A stretch of 64,000 nucleotides of DNA from Bryobacterales bacterium. GTDB lineage: Bacteria; Acidobacteriota; Terriglobia; Bryobacterales; Bryobacteraceae. Shown piece after piece: positions 24,906-55,784 of the stretch. The stretch's first letter is position 1. Each line of letters opens with the position of its first letter. The translations under genes were made by a program, and so were the position numbers. The stretch lies in contig JAFAQY010000118.1 of NCBI GenBank assembly GCA_019261985.1, forward strand, positions 1 through 64,000, given 5' to 3'. The notes under the pieces were generated by a model. It was not told the origin of the DNA and did no database searches. It saw only the letters and a list, made by a program, of their open reading frames with translations.

Positions 24906-24980
24906 TGGGGCAGGCTCCGGCCGCCATTTCCACACAATCGCCCGGCGCGATCGGCAATCGCGCGCAGGATCACATCCCAC
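24906..24980 (+). repeat. Degenerate composite palindromic element (copy A)
   Basis: GGGGCAGG at the left, then after a linker the hairpin GCGCGAT-CGGCA-ATCGCGC (24945-24963, last arm in ATCGCGC) and GCAGGATCACATCC. Order and sequence match copy B at 45601-45713 in the same orientation, but the two left hairpins have decayed. Confidence 0.55.
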
Positions 24981-37300: not shown

Positions 37301-37413
37301 GTGGGGCCGGATGCCATCCGGCGCGCGGTTGCCAACCGCGCTGGACGGCTCAGCGAAAAACTCACAGGCGCTTGGCAACCCGCTCCACGCGGGTCCGGAG
37401 ACCCGCCCCACAC
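37301..37413 (-). repeat. Composite palindromic element (copy E)
   Basis: Outer ends GTGGGG and CCCCAC enclose the hairpins GCCGGAT-GCC-ATCCGGC and GCGCGGTT-GCC-AACCGCGC, a linker of about 27 bp, a decayed third hairpin around CTTGGCAACCCG, and CGGGTC-CGG-AGACCCG. Arrangement and orientation match copy D at 55675-55784. It lies between kdpC and the small membrane protein gene, starting about 70 bp after kdpC. Confidence 0.75.
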
Positions 37414-45600: not shown

Positions 45601-45713
45601 GTGGGGCAGGTTGCCCAACCTGCGGCGGGTTGCTAACCCGCCTGTGCGCGTCTTTAACTAAAGCGGCCCAGCGCGATTGGCAATCGCGCGCAGGATCGCA
45701 TCCTGCCCCACCC
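45601..45713 (+). repeat. Composite palindromic element (copy B)
   Basis: Outer ends GTGGGGCAGG and CCTGCCCCAC are exact inverted repeats. Inside are four hairpins: GCAGGTTG-CC-CAACCTGC (45606-45623), GGCGGGTT-GCT-AACCCGCC (45624-45642), a linker of about 28 bp, GCGCGATT-GGC-AATCGCGC (45671-45689) and GCAGGAT-CGC-ATCCTGC (from 45690). It lies between the divergent Uma2 and TolC-type genes. The arrangement is the reverse complement of copy D at 55675-55784. Confidence 0.85.
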
Positions 45714-45750: not shown

Positions 45751-47646
45751 ATGAATCGAATCCTTGTGACGATCGCCATACTGTCAGTGATATCTCAGGC
45801 GGCGGAAATCTCCGTCCAAGAGCCGCCCCCCAGGCGCCTGGTTGGGCCTCTCCTTCGCCCGTTTCACATCGAGCGGCGGAACGTCGGGCCGGCCCAACTG
45901 ACCGATTCCCCGCGCCTCGAACAGCTCATCCGCGGCGGCAACCTGTACCTCTCGGTCCGCGATGTCATCGCGCTGGCGCTCGAAAACAATATCGATATCG
46001 CCATTCAGCGGTACGGACCATTCTTGCAGCAGGAAGTGTTGCGGCGAGCCGAGGGGGGCGCTCCGTTGCGCAATGTGGGCGTCAACATCCTGCCCGGGCC
46101 GCAAAGTGTCAGCCTTGCCGGCGTAAGCGTCAACGCCGTCGGATTATCCGACACCGGCGCCATCAGTTCCGGCGCGGGCATCGTTACTTCCATCGGAACC
46201 CCACCCCCGTCTCTCGATCCCAACCTCTTCGCAGGTGTCAGTTTCGCGCATCAGACCACGCCGTTATCGGTCACCGCTCTCAGCCTGGTTCCGGCGCTGA
46301 TTACCAACACGCAAGCTTTCCAGATTTCCTACGCGCAGTCGTTCGTTACGGGCACATTGGCGCAATTGAATTTTTACGGCTCGCACACTTCGCTCAACAG
46401 CCCGGCGAACGTCCTCAATCCCTTTACCCAGGGCACGCTGGAGCTATACGTAAACCAAAACCTGCTGCAGGGCTGGGGCGCGGCGGTCAACAACCGCTAC
46501 ATTCGGGTTGCGAAGAACAATCTCAAGGTCACCGACCTGCAATTTCAGCAGCAGGTAGTCACTACGGTGTCCGCGGTCCTGAATCTGTATTGGGACCTGG
46601 TGAGTTTCAATGACGACGTCCGCATCAAACAGGACGCTCTGGAAACGGCGCAAAAGCTTTTCGAAGACAATCAGAAGCAAGCGGAACTCGGCACTCTTCC
46701 GGGCATCGAAGTGACCCGCGCCGCGGCGCAGGTCTCGGCCAGTAAGGAAGACCTCCTGATCGCACAAACCAACGTCGCGCAGCAAGAGATCGTCCTAAAG
46801 AACGCCCTCAGCCGGACAGGCATCGCAAGCGCGCGGATGGATGAGGTCCACATCGTCACACTGGACACAATCATGGTTCCGGAGAAAGAGGACGACTTGC
46901 GGCCCACCCCCGAACTAGTCGACTACGCGCTGGCTCACCGGCCCGAAATCGAGAAAACTAAGATTAACCTGGAAAGCAGCAAAATCGGAGCCATCGGCAC
47001 GAAAAATGCGCTGCTGCCGAATCTTTCCGCATTTGTCGACGTGTCGAATAACGGTCTGACAGGCGCCGCGAACGCGCTCAACATCATCCCCGGAAATGTT
47101 CCCGACCCCGCCATCGTCGGCGGCTTCGGAACCCTGCTCGGTCAGATCTTTCAACGGCATTATCCCAACTATTCCGCCGGATTCTCGCTCAGCATTCCAT
47201 TCCGTAACCGCGCCCCGCAGGCGGACTACGTCGCCGACCAGCTCCAATTGCGGCAGAACGAATTGCAGCTCCAGCGCGCGATGAGTCAGGTGCGCGTGGA
47301 GGTGAGAAATGTCGTCATCGGGTTGCAGCAGGCTCGAGCGCGTTATGAAACGGCCGTGGCCACAAGAGTGCTCGCCGAGCAAACTCTGGAGGCCGAGCAG
47401 AACCGGTTTAAATTCGGCGAGTCCACTCCGGCGGCAGTGATTCAGGCGCAGCGGGATCTCGCGGGATTTCAGAGCAGCGAAGTGCAAGCGATGGCGAACT
47501 ACACGCACGCGAAGATTGCATTCGATCAGGCAATCGGGCGAACGCTTGAAGTAAACGGAATTTCTGTAGCGGAGGCACAGGCAGGCCAGGTTGCGCGGCC
47601 GTCCGCGATCCCGCCGGCAGTACAGGATGGGAGGACGAAGCAATGA
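45751..47646 (+). CDS. TolC-family outer-membrane efflux protein (first of pair)
   Basis: A 631-residue outer-membrane factor with a signal peptide (1-18, ISQAAE). The OEP repeats are LSVRDVIALALENNIDIAIQ near residue 68 and long coiled-coil helices such as DALETAQKLFEDNQKQAELG, with the second half repeating the pattern (FSLSIPFRNRAPQADYVADQ; TRVLAEQTLEAEQNRFKFGE). It is longer than E. coli TolC (about 470), mainly through a Gly/Ser/Thr-rich insert at about 110-190. It forms a periplasm-spanning exit duct with an inner-membrane exporter not encoded next to it. Its stop overlaps the next start (ATGA). Confidence 0.88.
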   Translation: MNRILVTIAILSVISQAAEISVQEPPPRRLVGPLLRPFHIERRNVGPAQLTDSPRLEQLIRGGNLYLSVRDVIALALENNIDIAIQRYGPFLQQEVLRRAEGGAPLRNVGVNILPGPQSVSLAGVSVNAVGLSDTGAISSGAGIVTSIGTPPPSLDPNLFAGVSFAHQTTPLSVTALSLVPALITNTQAFQISYAQSFVTGTLAQLNFYGSHTSLNSPANVLNPFTQGTLELYVNQNLLQGWGAAVNNRYIRVAKNNLKVTDLQFQQQVVTTVSAVLNLYWDLVSFNDDVRIKQDALETAQKLFEDNQKQAELGTLPGIEVTRAAAQVSASKEDLLIAQTNVAQQEIVLKNALSRTGIASARMDEVHIVTLDTIMVPEKEDDLRPTPELVDYALAHRPEIEKTKINLESSKIGAIGTKNALLPNLSAFVDVSNNGLTGAANALNIIPGNVPDPAIVGGFGTLLGQIFQRHYPNYSAGFSLSIPFRNRAPQADYVADQLQLRQNELQLQRAMSQVRVEVRNVVIGLQQARARYETAVATRVLAEQTLEAEQNRFKFGESTPAAVIQAQRDLAGFQSSEVQAMANYTHAKIAFDQAIGRTLEVNGISVAEAQAGQVARPSAIPPAVQDGRTKQ

Positions 47647-49649
47647 GGTCGCAGCGTGTGGGGCGGGTTGCCAAACCCGCCACGGATTGCCAACCCGCCT
47701 GGCCGGGCGTTACGAAGATTCGAACGCGCGATTGGCAATCGCGCGCGGGTTGGCAACCCGCCCTACTCGCCTGTCTCGTGCCCGCATTATTCGCCCAGCA
47801 GCCGTTCGTGGAGCGGCCGAAAAGCTCCGTGTTTTGGCGCCCCTATCAAGCTCCGACCGTGCCTCCCTCCCGGACCACCAACTCAGACAGGCTGTACGGC
47901 CTTATTCGCGCCGGCAAGCTCTACCTTACCCTCCAGGACGCCATCGGATTGGCCATCGAAAACAATCTCGATCTGGAAATCGACCGCTACGGGCCGCTCG
48001 CGGCCGAATGGAACTTCCAGCGCCAGCAAGCGGGCGGCCCACTCAAGGGCGTCCCCAATGGCAACACTTTTGTCAACCAAATCACAGCGGGTCAAGGAAT
48101 CAATGGAGCCATACAAAGCGCGGGTCTTTCCTCCGGCAACGCGAGCGGAGGCGGCGGCAACACTAATACCCAAATCTCGCAGGTTGGCCCCATTACTCCC
48201 AACCTCGATACCGTCGCGCAAAATACCAGCGCCTGGGCTCATCTCACGTATCCTCAGCCCAATGCAATCCTGAGCCAGACCACTGCCCTTGTCGACGTCA
48301 CGAGCCGTTTCAATTCGTTTGTGCAAGAGGGTCTTGTTTCCGGCGGATTCGCTCAGGTCTCGATGAACATGTCGTATCTGAATGAAAACAGTCCCAACGA
48401 TGTGATCAATCCGTCGTGGGCTCCGATCGCGCAGGTTTATGTGCGCCACAGCCTGCTCAATGGGTTCGGCACGGGAGTCAACAGCCGGTTTATCCGCGTG
48501 GCCCAGGGTCAAATCGGAGCAGCGCGCGAAACCTTTCGCGCGCAGTTGCTCGCCCTGGTTGCGAATATCGCGAACCTCTATTGGGATCTGGTCATTGCGG
48601 GCGAGGATCTGAAGGCGAAGCAGGGGACGCTTGAGATCGCGCAGAAGTTTCTGGATGACACCAAGGCCCGGATTCAACTGGGAGAAATCGCCGGCTTCGA
48701 AGTTTTCCGCGCGCAGACCGAGTTTTCTTCGCGGCGTCAGGAGGTGGCCATTGCCGAAGCCAACGTGCTTCAGCGCGAAGTTCTGTTAAAGGACGCTCTC
48801 AGCCGGAATGGACTCGCCGATCTGGCGCTGGATGAAGCGGAAATCGTGCCATTGGACCGTATCCAAGTACCGGAATCCGACGATCTCCCGTCGTTGCGCG
48901 AACTGGTGATGAAAGCGATGGCTCTCCGCCCGGACGTGGCGCTGGCCAAAATCGGAGATGAGAGTCAGCGTATTTCCGCGGAGGGAACCGCGAATGGCAT
49001 TCTGCCTTCCCTTCAGGCTGCCGCCGCCGCGTCCGCCCGAGGCTTGGCGGGTACCCCGAATCCAGCCGCCGGCGCGGCTCCGAACCCGCAAATCGTCGGA
49101 GGGCTAGGAACGGCATTCGCGCAAACCTTCACAGGCGACTTCACCGGCAGGCAAGGCACGTTACTGTTCTCGGCGCCATTCAAGAATCATGTCGCGCAGG
49201 CGGATTACGGCATCGATCAGTTACAGCTCAGCCAGGGCGATTTGATAGAGCGCCGGAATCAGAACCAATTGGTGGTGGATATTTCGAATCAGATGATCGC
49301 GCTGCGGCAAGCCCGCGCGCGCTATTCGCAGGCTGTCGCCACGCGAGTCTTAGAGGAGCAGTTGCTCGATAAGGAACAGCAGCAGTTTTTGCTGGGAGGA
49401 TCGGCGATCGAGAACGTCGTTGCGGCGGCGCGCAGCCTGGCCGCGGCGCAGTATGCCGAAGTCGCGGCGCTCGGCGGTTATAGCCGGGCGCGCGTGGCGT
49501 TGGATCAGGTGCTTGGGCAGACGCTGGAAGTAAATCGCGTGTCCGTGGATGACGCGCTCGGCGCGGCTCCTAGCGGTCCCGCTCGGTCACCAGGTCCGTC
49601 ACGGCCATCAACGCCCGCTGGTACGGCGAATCGGGAAACCCGGCGATAA
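47643..49649 (+). CDS. TolC-family outer-membrane efflux protein (second of pair, repeat in N-terminus)
   Basis: A 668-residue outer-membrane factor paralogous to the previous one: LTLQDAIGLAIENNLDLEID, KQGTLEIAQKFLDDTKARIQ, LFSAPFKNHVAQADYGIDQL, and TRVLEEQLLDKEQQQFLLGG. The start overlaps the upstream stop (ATGA), so this start is well supported. Residues 6-41 are the translation of a palindromic element; the signal core LLACLVPALFA (41-51) comes only after it. No other start keeps that core. The C-terminus (SGPARSPGPSRPSTPAGTAN) is atypical and reads 80 bp into the convergent polyprenyl synthase gene, as if the original stop were lost. Confidence 0.85.
   Translation: MRSQRVGRVAKPATDCQPAWPGVTKIRTRDWQSRAGWQPALLACLVPALFAQQPFVERPKSSVFWRPYQAPTVPPSRTTNSDRLYGLIRAGKLYLTLQDAIGLAIENNLDLEIDRYGPLAAEWNFQRQQAGGPLKGVPNGNTFVNQITAGQGINGAIQSAGLSSGNASGGGGNTNTQISQVGPITPNLDTVAQNTSAWAHLTYPQPNAILSQTTALVDVTSRFNSFVQEGLVSGGFAQVSMNMSYLNENSPNDVINPSWAPIAQVYVRHSLLNGFGTGVNSRFIRVAQGQIGAARETFRAQLLALVANIANLYWDLVIAGEDLKAKQGTLEIAQKFLDDTKARIQLGEIAGFEVFRAQTEFSSRRQEVAIAEANVLQREVLLKDALSRNGLADLALDEAEIVPLDRIQVPESDDLPSLRELVMKAMALRPDVALAKIGDESQRISAEGTANGILPSLQAAAAASARGLAGTPNPAAGAAPNPQIVGGLGTAFAQTFTGDFTGRQGTLLFSAPFKNHVAQADYGIDQLQLSQGDLIERRNQNQLVVDISNQMIALRQARARYSQAVATRVLEEQLLDKEQQQFLLGGSAIENVVAAARSLAAAQYAEVAALGGYSRARVALDQVLGQTLEVNRVSVDDALGAAPSGPARSPGPSRPSTPAGTANRETRR
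47658..47765 (+). repeat. Composite palindromic element inside a coding region (copy C)
   Basis: GTGGGGCGGGTTGCCAAACC opens the element; hairpins follow as in copy B: CGGGTTTGGCAACCCG-type, a decayed second one, a linker of about 25 bp, CGCGCGATT-GGC-AATCGCGCG, and CGGGTT-GGC-AACCCG, ending CCTAC. The length is 108 bp, exactly 36 codons, and it lies within codons 6-41 of the second TolC-type gene without a stop in that frame. Confidence 0.8.
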
Positions 49650-55674: not shown

Positions 55675-55784
55675 GTGGGGCAGGATGCCATCCTGCGCGC
55701 GATTGCCAATCGCGCTGGTCGGCGTTGGTACAAACGTCGCCAGGCGGGTTAGCAACCCGCCGCAGGTTAAGCAACCTGCCCCAC
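55675..55784 (-). repeat. Composite palindromic element (copy D)
   Basis: Outer ends GTGGGGCAGG and CCTGCCCCAC; inside GCAGGAT-GCC-ATCCTGC, GCGCGATT-GCC-AATCGCGC, a linker of about 28 bp, GGCGGGTT-AGC-AACCCGCC and GCAGGTT-AAGC-AACCTGC. Order is the reverse of copy B. It lies between convergent ku and nuoN. A fragment GTGGGGCAGG also occurs at 55628-55637. Confidence 0.85.

Follow-up and report, generated by a model that had tools for sequence, protein, structure and literature searches.

How does an exported protein fare when a mobile palindrome comes to lie inside its signal peptide? The question is raised by a gene for a TolC-type outer membrane efflux protein (47643-49649, forward strand, 668 codons; Pfam OEP, E 1.9e-15) in a 64,000-nucleotide stretch, here called the window, of a Bryobacterales bacterium (GCA_019261985.1, contig JAFAQY010000118.1; contig 28 of a 6.49 Mb genome, 98.8% complete). 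Its leader holds one copy of a dispersed element, identified below as a doublet of repetitive extragenic palindromic (REP) sequences forming hairpins (REPIN). The reading favoured here, with a probability of roughly 0.75 on sequence comparison, is that this REPIN was moved by a REP-associated tyrosine transposase (RAYT), entered the n-region of the signal peptide, kept the frame and left a leader that still works.

The start of the gene, which the original prediction had taken as firm from an ATGA overlap, is well supported: the ATG at 47643 overlaps the stop codon of a tandem TolC-type paralogue (45751-47646, forward strand), and GGAGG lies 8 nt upstream of it. From this start the open reading frame (ORF) 47643-49649 is stop-free through the element, as had been claimed, and the 627 codons 3' of the element are open with coding-type codon use. 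The product begins with five native codons, MRSQR (47643-47657, forward strand), followed by 36 element-coded residues and then LACLVPALFAQQ. With its ends fixed by family alignment, the element spans 47658-47766 (forward strand); the original prediction of 108 bp filling exactly codons 6-41 needs correcting, since the copy measures 109 bp and includes the first base of codon 42. Next comes LACLVPALFA, the hydrophobic core with the probable cleavage region, followed by QQ (47766-47795, forward strand; mean hydropathy of the core 2.47 over 10 residues), the core being extended by the last codons of the element (A-L) and a codon shared with the target (L). Basic n-regions are preferred in signal peptides, and the 8 K/R against 2 D/E found 5' of the core agree with this. 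The sequence shows candidate features of a Sec signal peptide (basic n-region, hydropathic core, LFA before QQ, after which cleavage would occur), but the 41-residue n-region is unusual; long n-regions occur elsewhere, for example in autotransporters.

The element is a REPIN, two inverted REPs (each of two hairpins) flanking a variable middle. Thirty copies from the genome can be aligned from GTGGGG to CCCCAC and share no sequence beyond these ends; the window-gene copy ends in CCCTAC instead. The consensus runs from GTGGGG through two hairpins, TG and about 20 variable bases into a mirror arrangement with other stems, and this pairing of inverted REPs round a spacer recurs in 123 full copies. 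The tetranucleotide at the REP end is GTGG in most of the aligned copies and GTAG in some, and the window-gene copy shows both, GTGG at one end and, read inward, GTAG at the opposite one. As had been predicted, the element occurs elsewhere in the genome, and in the large number of dispersed copies expected of a REPIN: the core 17-mer (up to 2 mismatches) gives 211 matches on one strand and 228 on the other, compared with 2 and 1 for a reversed control, and the element as genome query gives at least 46 matches at E ≤ 0.001 (best 40 of 363 candidates scored). Within the window, the 19-mer GGCGGGTTGCCAACCCGCC has 9 matches against 0.14 expected (up to 3 mismatches, both strands, palindromic sites counting twice). 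A survey of 145 stretches, the window included, amounting to 1,078,295 bases (about 1.08 of the 6.49 Mb), yielded 238 distinct copies, partial ones included, of which 123 are full; the copies were listed by sequence patterns rather than by the 109-bp DNA query, and the stretches were picked round listed copies and are hence not random. By hidden Markov model (HMM), the window-gene copy scores 80.9 and ranks 78th among the 123 full copies. Among 82 near-complete copies, the only preference in the flanking sequence is for A/T next to each end, and inspection by eye gave no consistent target-site duplication.

A candidate for moving the element exists in the same genome. Among five Y1-transposase matches (L061-L065), L062 carries REPs of the window-element family at both ends (91% over 46 nt and 90% over 42 nt), one of which overlaps the 3' end of its open frame. 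Against the NCBIfam model for REP-associated transposases (NF047646; cut-off 80), L061 scores above the threshold, and L062 (79.6), L064 (76.2) and L063 (68.5) fall below it. The mobility originally proposed is supported in so far as the element is dispersed and has a candidate RAYT with matching REPs, and a RAYT of the L062 type probably moves it. L061, L063 and L064 adjoin other palindromes, suggesting that several REP families may coexist in the genome; none were found beside L065. The RAYT with window-family REPs lies directly 5' (L109:174-2927) of a large exported-type gene lacking a clear start, in whose leader the RAYT unit may have landed.

Homologues of the window gene are present in 21 of the 23 genomes of the genus, its own included, and relatives also have the tandem TolC-type pair. 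The nearest orthologue (G002, 63%) has the ordinary leader MKSPKALIILLACSFLISPSSAQ, as has that of G004 (55%; MRRTTTKIVAISAAWSSLLVQLQAQQ), in which an ATGA-type start occurs too; the leaders of the G007, G008 and G001 orthologues are likewise ordinary, as are those of 19 loci from named relatives (Bryobacteraceae and other Acidobacteriota assemblies, one record labelled Nevskia). The element HMM finds no match in 29 homologous loci of the genus (own-genome paralogue L054 included), and in the 19 named loci it finds a single copy (L219), well downstream of the gene; none lies near a leader in these 48 loci. The alignment with orthologues proposed as the decisive check therefore supports insertion, the leaders of the closest relatives being ordinary, short and element-free in all those inspected. 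As far as sampled, the insert is specific to the lineage of the window, and the short, element-free signal peptides of the closest Bryobacteraceae orthologues make insertion into the n-region the best reading.

One further orthologue, that of G015 (54%), starts MKYFHHVRTAGFSPREASASLQHNRRAEKSALRKSLAIAAAYACLFAQLHAQ, and the DNA under its extra residues is a palindrome of another type, beginning GGACGGCGGGC. Elsewhere in G015 it has at least five partial matches (best 40 of 59 candidates scored), of which at least two (L067, L069) form an inverted doublet by eye; the right half of the in-gene copy is degenerate. The signal peptide of this orthologue thus holds, at the same place as in the window gene, an independent, decayed palindromic doublet of another family (L160; L034:1344-1465), which may be akin to the CGTC-tagged REPs described by Di Nocera et al.

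The window gene is one of several such cases in its genome. A simple codon-model gene caller, run on the surveyed stretches, returned 963 genes (87% coding); of the 238 copies, 176 fell outside these genes, 26 overlapped one in part and 36 lay within one. The last comprise eight accepted leaders, five internal copies, four at C-terminal ends and 19 in which the start is mis-called or uncertain or the frame is doubtful. Inspection by hand led to the acceptance of ten leader insertions that have an in-frame start upstream, the window gene included. In another TolC-type gene (L130:2979) the element lies between MFARVSEFEIAL and FIAICITAVCHAQ; in an S13 peptidase (L084:1608) it lies between the initial M and VLLALACASMA, the ATG overlapping the upstream stop by eye; in a NicO protein (L134:2933) it follows MNPRKFLCFSL and precedes GVLGLLAAALASA; and in L245:3966 it separates MKQS from LLLGLAPLLQAQ. 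It follows MRL in the first membrane helix of a PMT-type protein (L261:9620) and divides a prepilin leader into MPTSGVGAANSR and RGACSQTGVTLLELLIV (L252:3845-3951). The remaining cases are a protein with BNR-type repeats (L140:2979), one with beta-lactamase/NamZ domains (L257:4041) and L227:2903. Pfam named no family for L079, L109, L227:2967 or L245. Eight copies whose start is uncertain or lies in the element were left out of the ten (L079:2714, L229:9160, L233:4037, L239:3946, L241:3952, L252:5540, L265:4071 and L265:5979). Also rejected as leader insertions were L086, L091, L122 and L228, where the gene's own start is probably 3' of the element or the frame is doubtful, and L227:9445-9512, an internal copy between the helices of a membrane protein. 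No such insert was seen in the orthologue N-termini of L130 (13 loci), L084 (13), L134 (3), L257 (8) and L261 (9), among which several starts are uncertain and a few contigs end early; there the HMM gave two weak matches, neither in a leader (L187, about 100 nt 5' of the start; L279, 3' of the gene). For six of the accepted cases, the window gene and these five, no orthologue with the element in its leader was found.

Whether this recurrence depends on the reading frame was judged from all hydrophobic N-terminal cores starting within 20 codons after a copy, with ATG and GTG as the only starts and openness not a criterion. There are 45 such cores: 19 have no ATG or GTG between element and core, and 26 with a start of their own serve as controls. 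In 17 of the 19 severed cores, an in-frame ATG or GTG lies within about 65 nt upstream with no intervening stop; of the other two, one is open without such a start and one has a start only inside the element. Among the controls, the same holds for seven; six others are open but lack a start, and 13 contain a stop. The difference is significant both for openness to an upstream start (17/19 vs 7/26; Fisher P = 4.9e-5) and for stops in the element (0/19 vs 13/26; P = 1.6e-4), and it holds when the five rejected rows named above are dropped (13/14 vs 7/26; P = 1.4e-4). Since roughly 65% of the frames through the element are open in any case, it is the comparison with the controls that counts. Nothing rests on an earlier version, which admitted TTG as a start and used ten hand-picked rows (9/10 vs 7/83).

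The density of copies was estimated as well, on figures that are rough because they rest on rough gene models and on ten cases chosen by hand. Outside genes there are 202 copies (partial overlaps included) in 123 kb. At that density, about 6.5 kb of n-region would be expected to contain 10.7 copies regardless of frame, or 3.6 with the frame kept, against the ten accepted; for the remaining 928 kb of coding sequence the expectation is about 1,523, against the five internal and four C-terminal copies found. For this REPIN, n-regions thus behave much like intergenic DNA, subject to frame, and the copies in several exported or membrane leaders suggest that signal peptides are among the few coding places that tolerate insertions. 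A bolder proposal, which we hold tentatively and would put at somewhat less than an even chance, is that n-regions, prepilin leaders and first membrane helices form a general safe harbour for in-gene REPs, taking them up nearly as freely as intergenic DNA does, that the element, whose translation is rich in Arg and often free of stops, is well suited to an n-region, and that one and the same leader is entered by unrelated REP families in different species.

For the window gene, we infer the following course from the sequence. A REPIN from one of the genome's own REP families, probably moved by the L062 RAYT, would have entered the n-region of the TolC-type signal peptide. With the frame kept, ribosomes would read through it, adding 36 mostly hydrophilic, net basic residues between MRSQR and the core. 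Sec export depends on a cleavage site preceded by a basic n-region and a hydrophobic core, so the long leader would probably still work; it would be cut off as part of the signal peptide, and the mature protein would be the same as before. Leader insertions would persist because n-regions tolerate extra basic residues, most other in-gene insertions being removed by selection.

This reading has to be weighed against several observations that speak against it. The 109 bp are not a multiple of 3, which excludes a clean insertion of the whole element and implies the gain or loss of a base at some point. Excision had been predicted to leave a normal short signal peptide; short it would be, and yet MRSQR and LACLVPALFA make only about 15 residues, so that some native codons may be missing. 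The closest orthologue is only 63% identical, and the empty site is not visible at the nucleotide level; the sequence rests on an assembly of 138 contigs; and the openness of the element in most frames makes an open frame weak evidence by itself. The gene caller places eight of the ten accepted cases inside genes, starting L134 and L140 after the signal peptide, and the GspK-type gene at L252:5540-5642, counted among the 17, has a likely native ATG out of frame. Finally, the RNA spanning the insert has a predicted folding energy of -90.5 kcal/mol, where shuffled sequences average -68.0 (z -5.3), and this hairpin might hinder translation. Such a hairpin 3' of the start, together with the unusual n-region and the ease with which the element is open by chance, would fit an insertion that broke the signal peptide, leaving a recent pseudogene or a product kept inside and a frame open by luck. 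We consider this unlikely: the downstream codons are open with coding-type usage, the copy is of average divergence and hence not obviously new, the in-frame pattern recurs in other genes, and about ten accepted leader insertions in 1.08 Mb speak for toleration rather than damage, the original prediction having allowed for both working and impaired export in this gene.

A start elsewhere, with the element untranslated, would make the case an annotation artefact of the kind to which Di Nocera et al. ascribed the majority of N-terminal REPs. Such artefacts are common in this genome, 26 of the 45 hydrophobic N-termini having their own start after the element and several element-bearing genes being mis-started by the gene caller. 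For the window gene this is very improbable, as ATG, GGAGG and ATGA overlap all lie upstream of the element, with the same type of start in G004, and the later in-frame starts (a GTG inside the core and codons beyond) give no signal peptide. The excess of ten in-frame leader cases over the 3.6 expected could also mean that insertion by the RAYT favours the vicinity of gene starts, in which case target choice would account for the leader cases more than toleration does; given that the flanks show only an A/T preference, and given the roughness of that expectation, we consider this unlikely as well.

Further copies were recorded beside these cases. In the window, nhmmer places a full copy upstream of the first TolC-type gene (45601-45711, forward strand; ORF from 45751), a diverged copy at 37301-37410 (reverse strand, 52.4 bits) and the right half of one at 24928-24977 (forward strand, 27.2 bits); DNA query and nhmmer both find a full copy at 55675-55784 (reverse strand). 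The in-frame internal copies lie in Sir2 (L125:654-723), a U32 peptidase (L075:4709-4792), CtaG (L230:3991-4042) and a chorismate-binding enzyme (L246:3973-4031), in which they likely sit in loops or linkers; the fifth is that of the membrane protein mentioned above. At L232:2748-2832 and L260:4056-4115, the upstream gene ends within a REP copy, which provides its final residues and stop codon. Two REPINs (L252:3845-3951 and L252:5540-5642) lie in an apparent type II secretion operon, where an in-frame ATG within the second may serve as start of the GspK-type gene.

The comparison with known systems draws on parts of the papers cited. The element is like the REPINs and RAYTs of Bertels and Rainey (2011; PMC3116915) in its inverted REP pair and spacer, dispersal, predicted hairpin and RAYT with matching REPs, and differs in that nearly all copies there lie outside genes (14 overlapping 16-mers among 1,067 occurrences), whereas signal peptides hold some of those found here. 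Di Nocera et al. (2013; PMC3733652) likewise describe intragenic GTAG/CGTC REPs in frame in coding sequence, N-termini included; most N-terminal ones were held to be extragenic through misannotation, and the main text does not use the term "signal peptide". Rickettsia palindromic elements (PMC10969869, PMC2229807), of about 100-150 bp, are kept in frame in many genes and some of the products are made, but they belong to another family and host and are spread over many proteins without a focus on export leaders. Among enterobacterial RU/MITE fusions (MITE, miniature inverted-repeat transposable element), a putative exported protein of Yersinia has a predicted signal peptide made in part by a mobile element, and homologues in other genera carry unrelated signal sequences (Delihas, 2007; PMC2759123); those are single examples with a MITE-type element, whereas here a REPIN extends the n-region repeatedly in one genome. 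In-frame REPs or palindromic elements and one element-derived signal peptide are thus known already, and the apparent novelty is the recurrence in export leaders, of which no description was found among the open PMC papers listed.

The usual view of REPs is that they are extragenic and that those at N-termini reflect annotation errors. If REPs can be accommodated in frame within export leaders, genes of this kind may be misannotated or thought broken. Their n-regions would then form a natural test of how much extra sequence Sec tolerates, and REP activity would gain a route into protein evolution. Should the safe-harbour proposal be true, leaders could be remodelled over time, and an mRNA hairpin near the start could alter the output of envelope genes.

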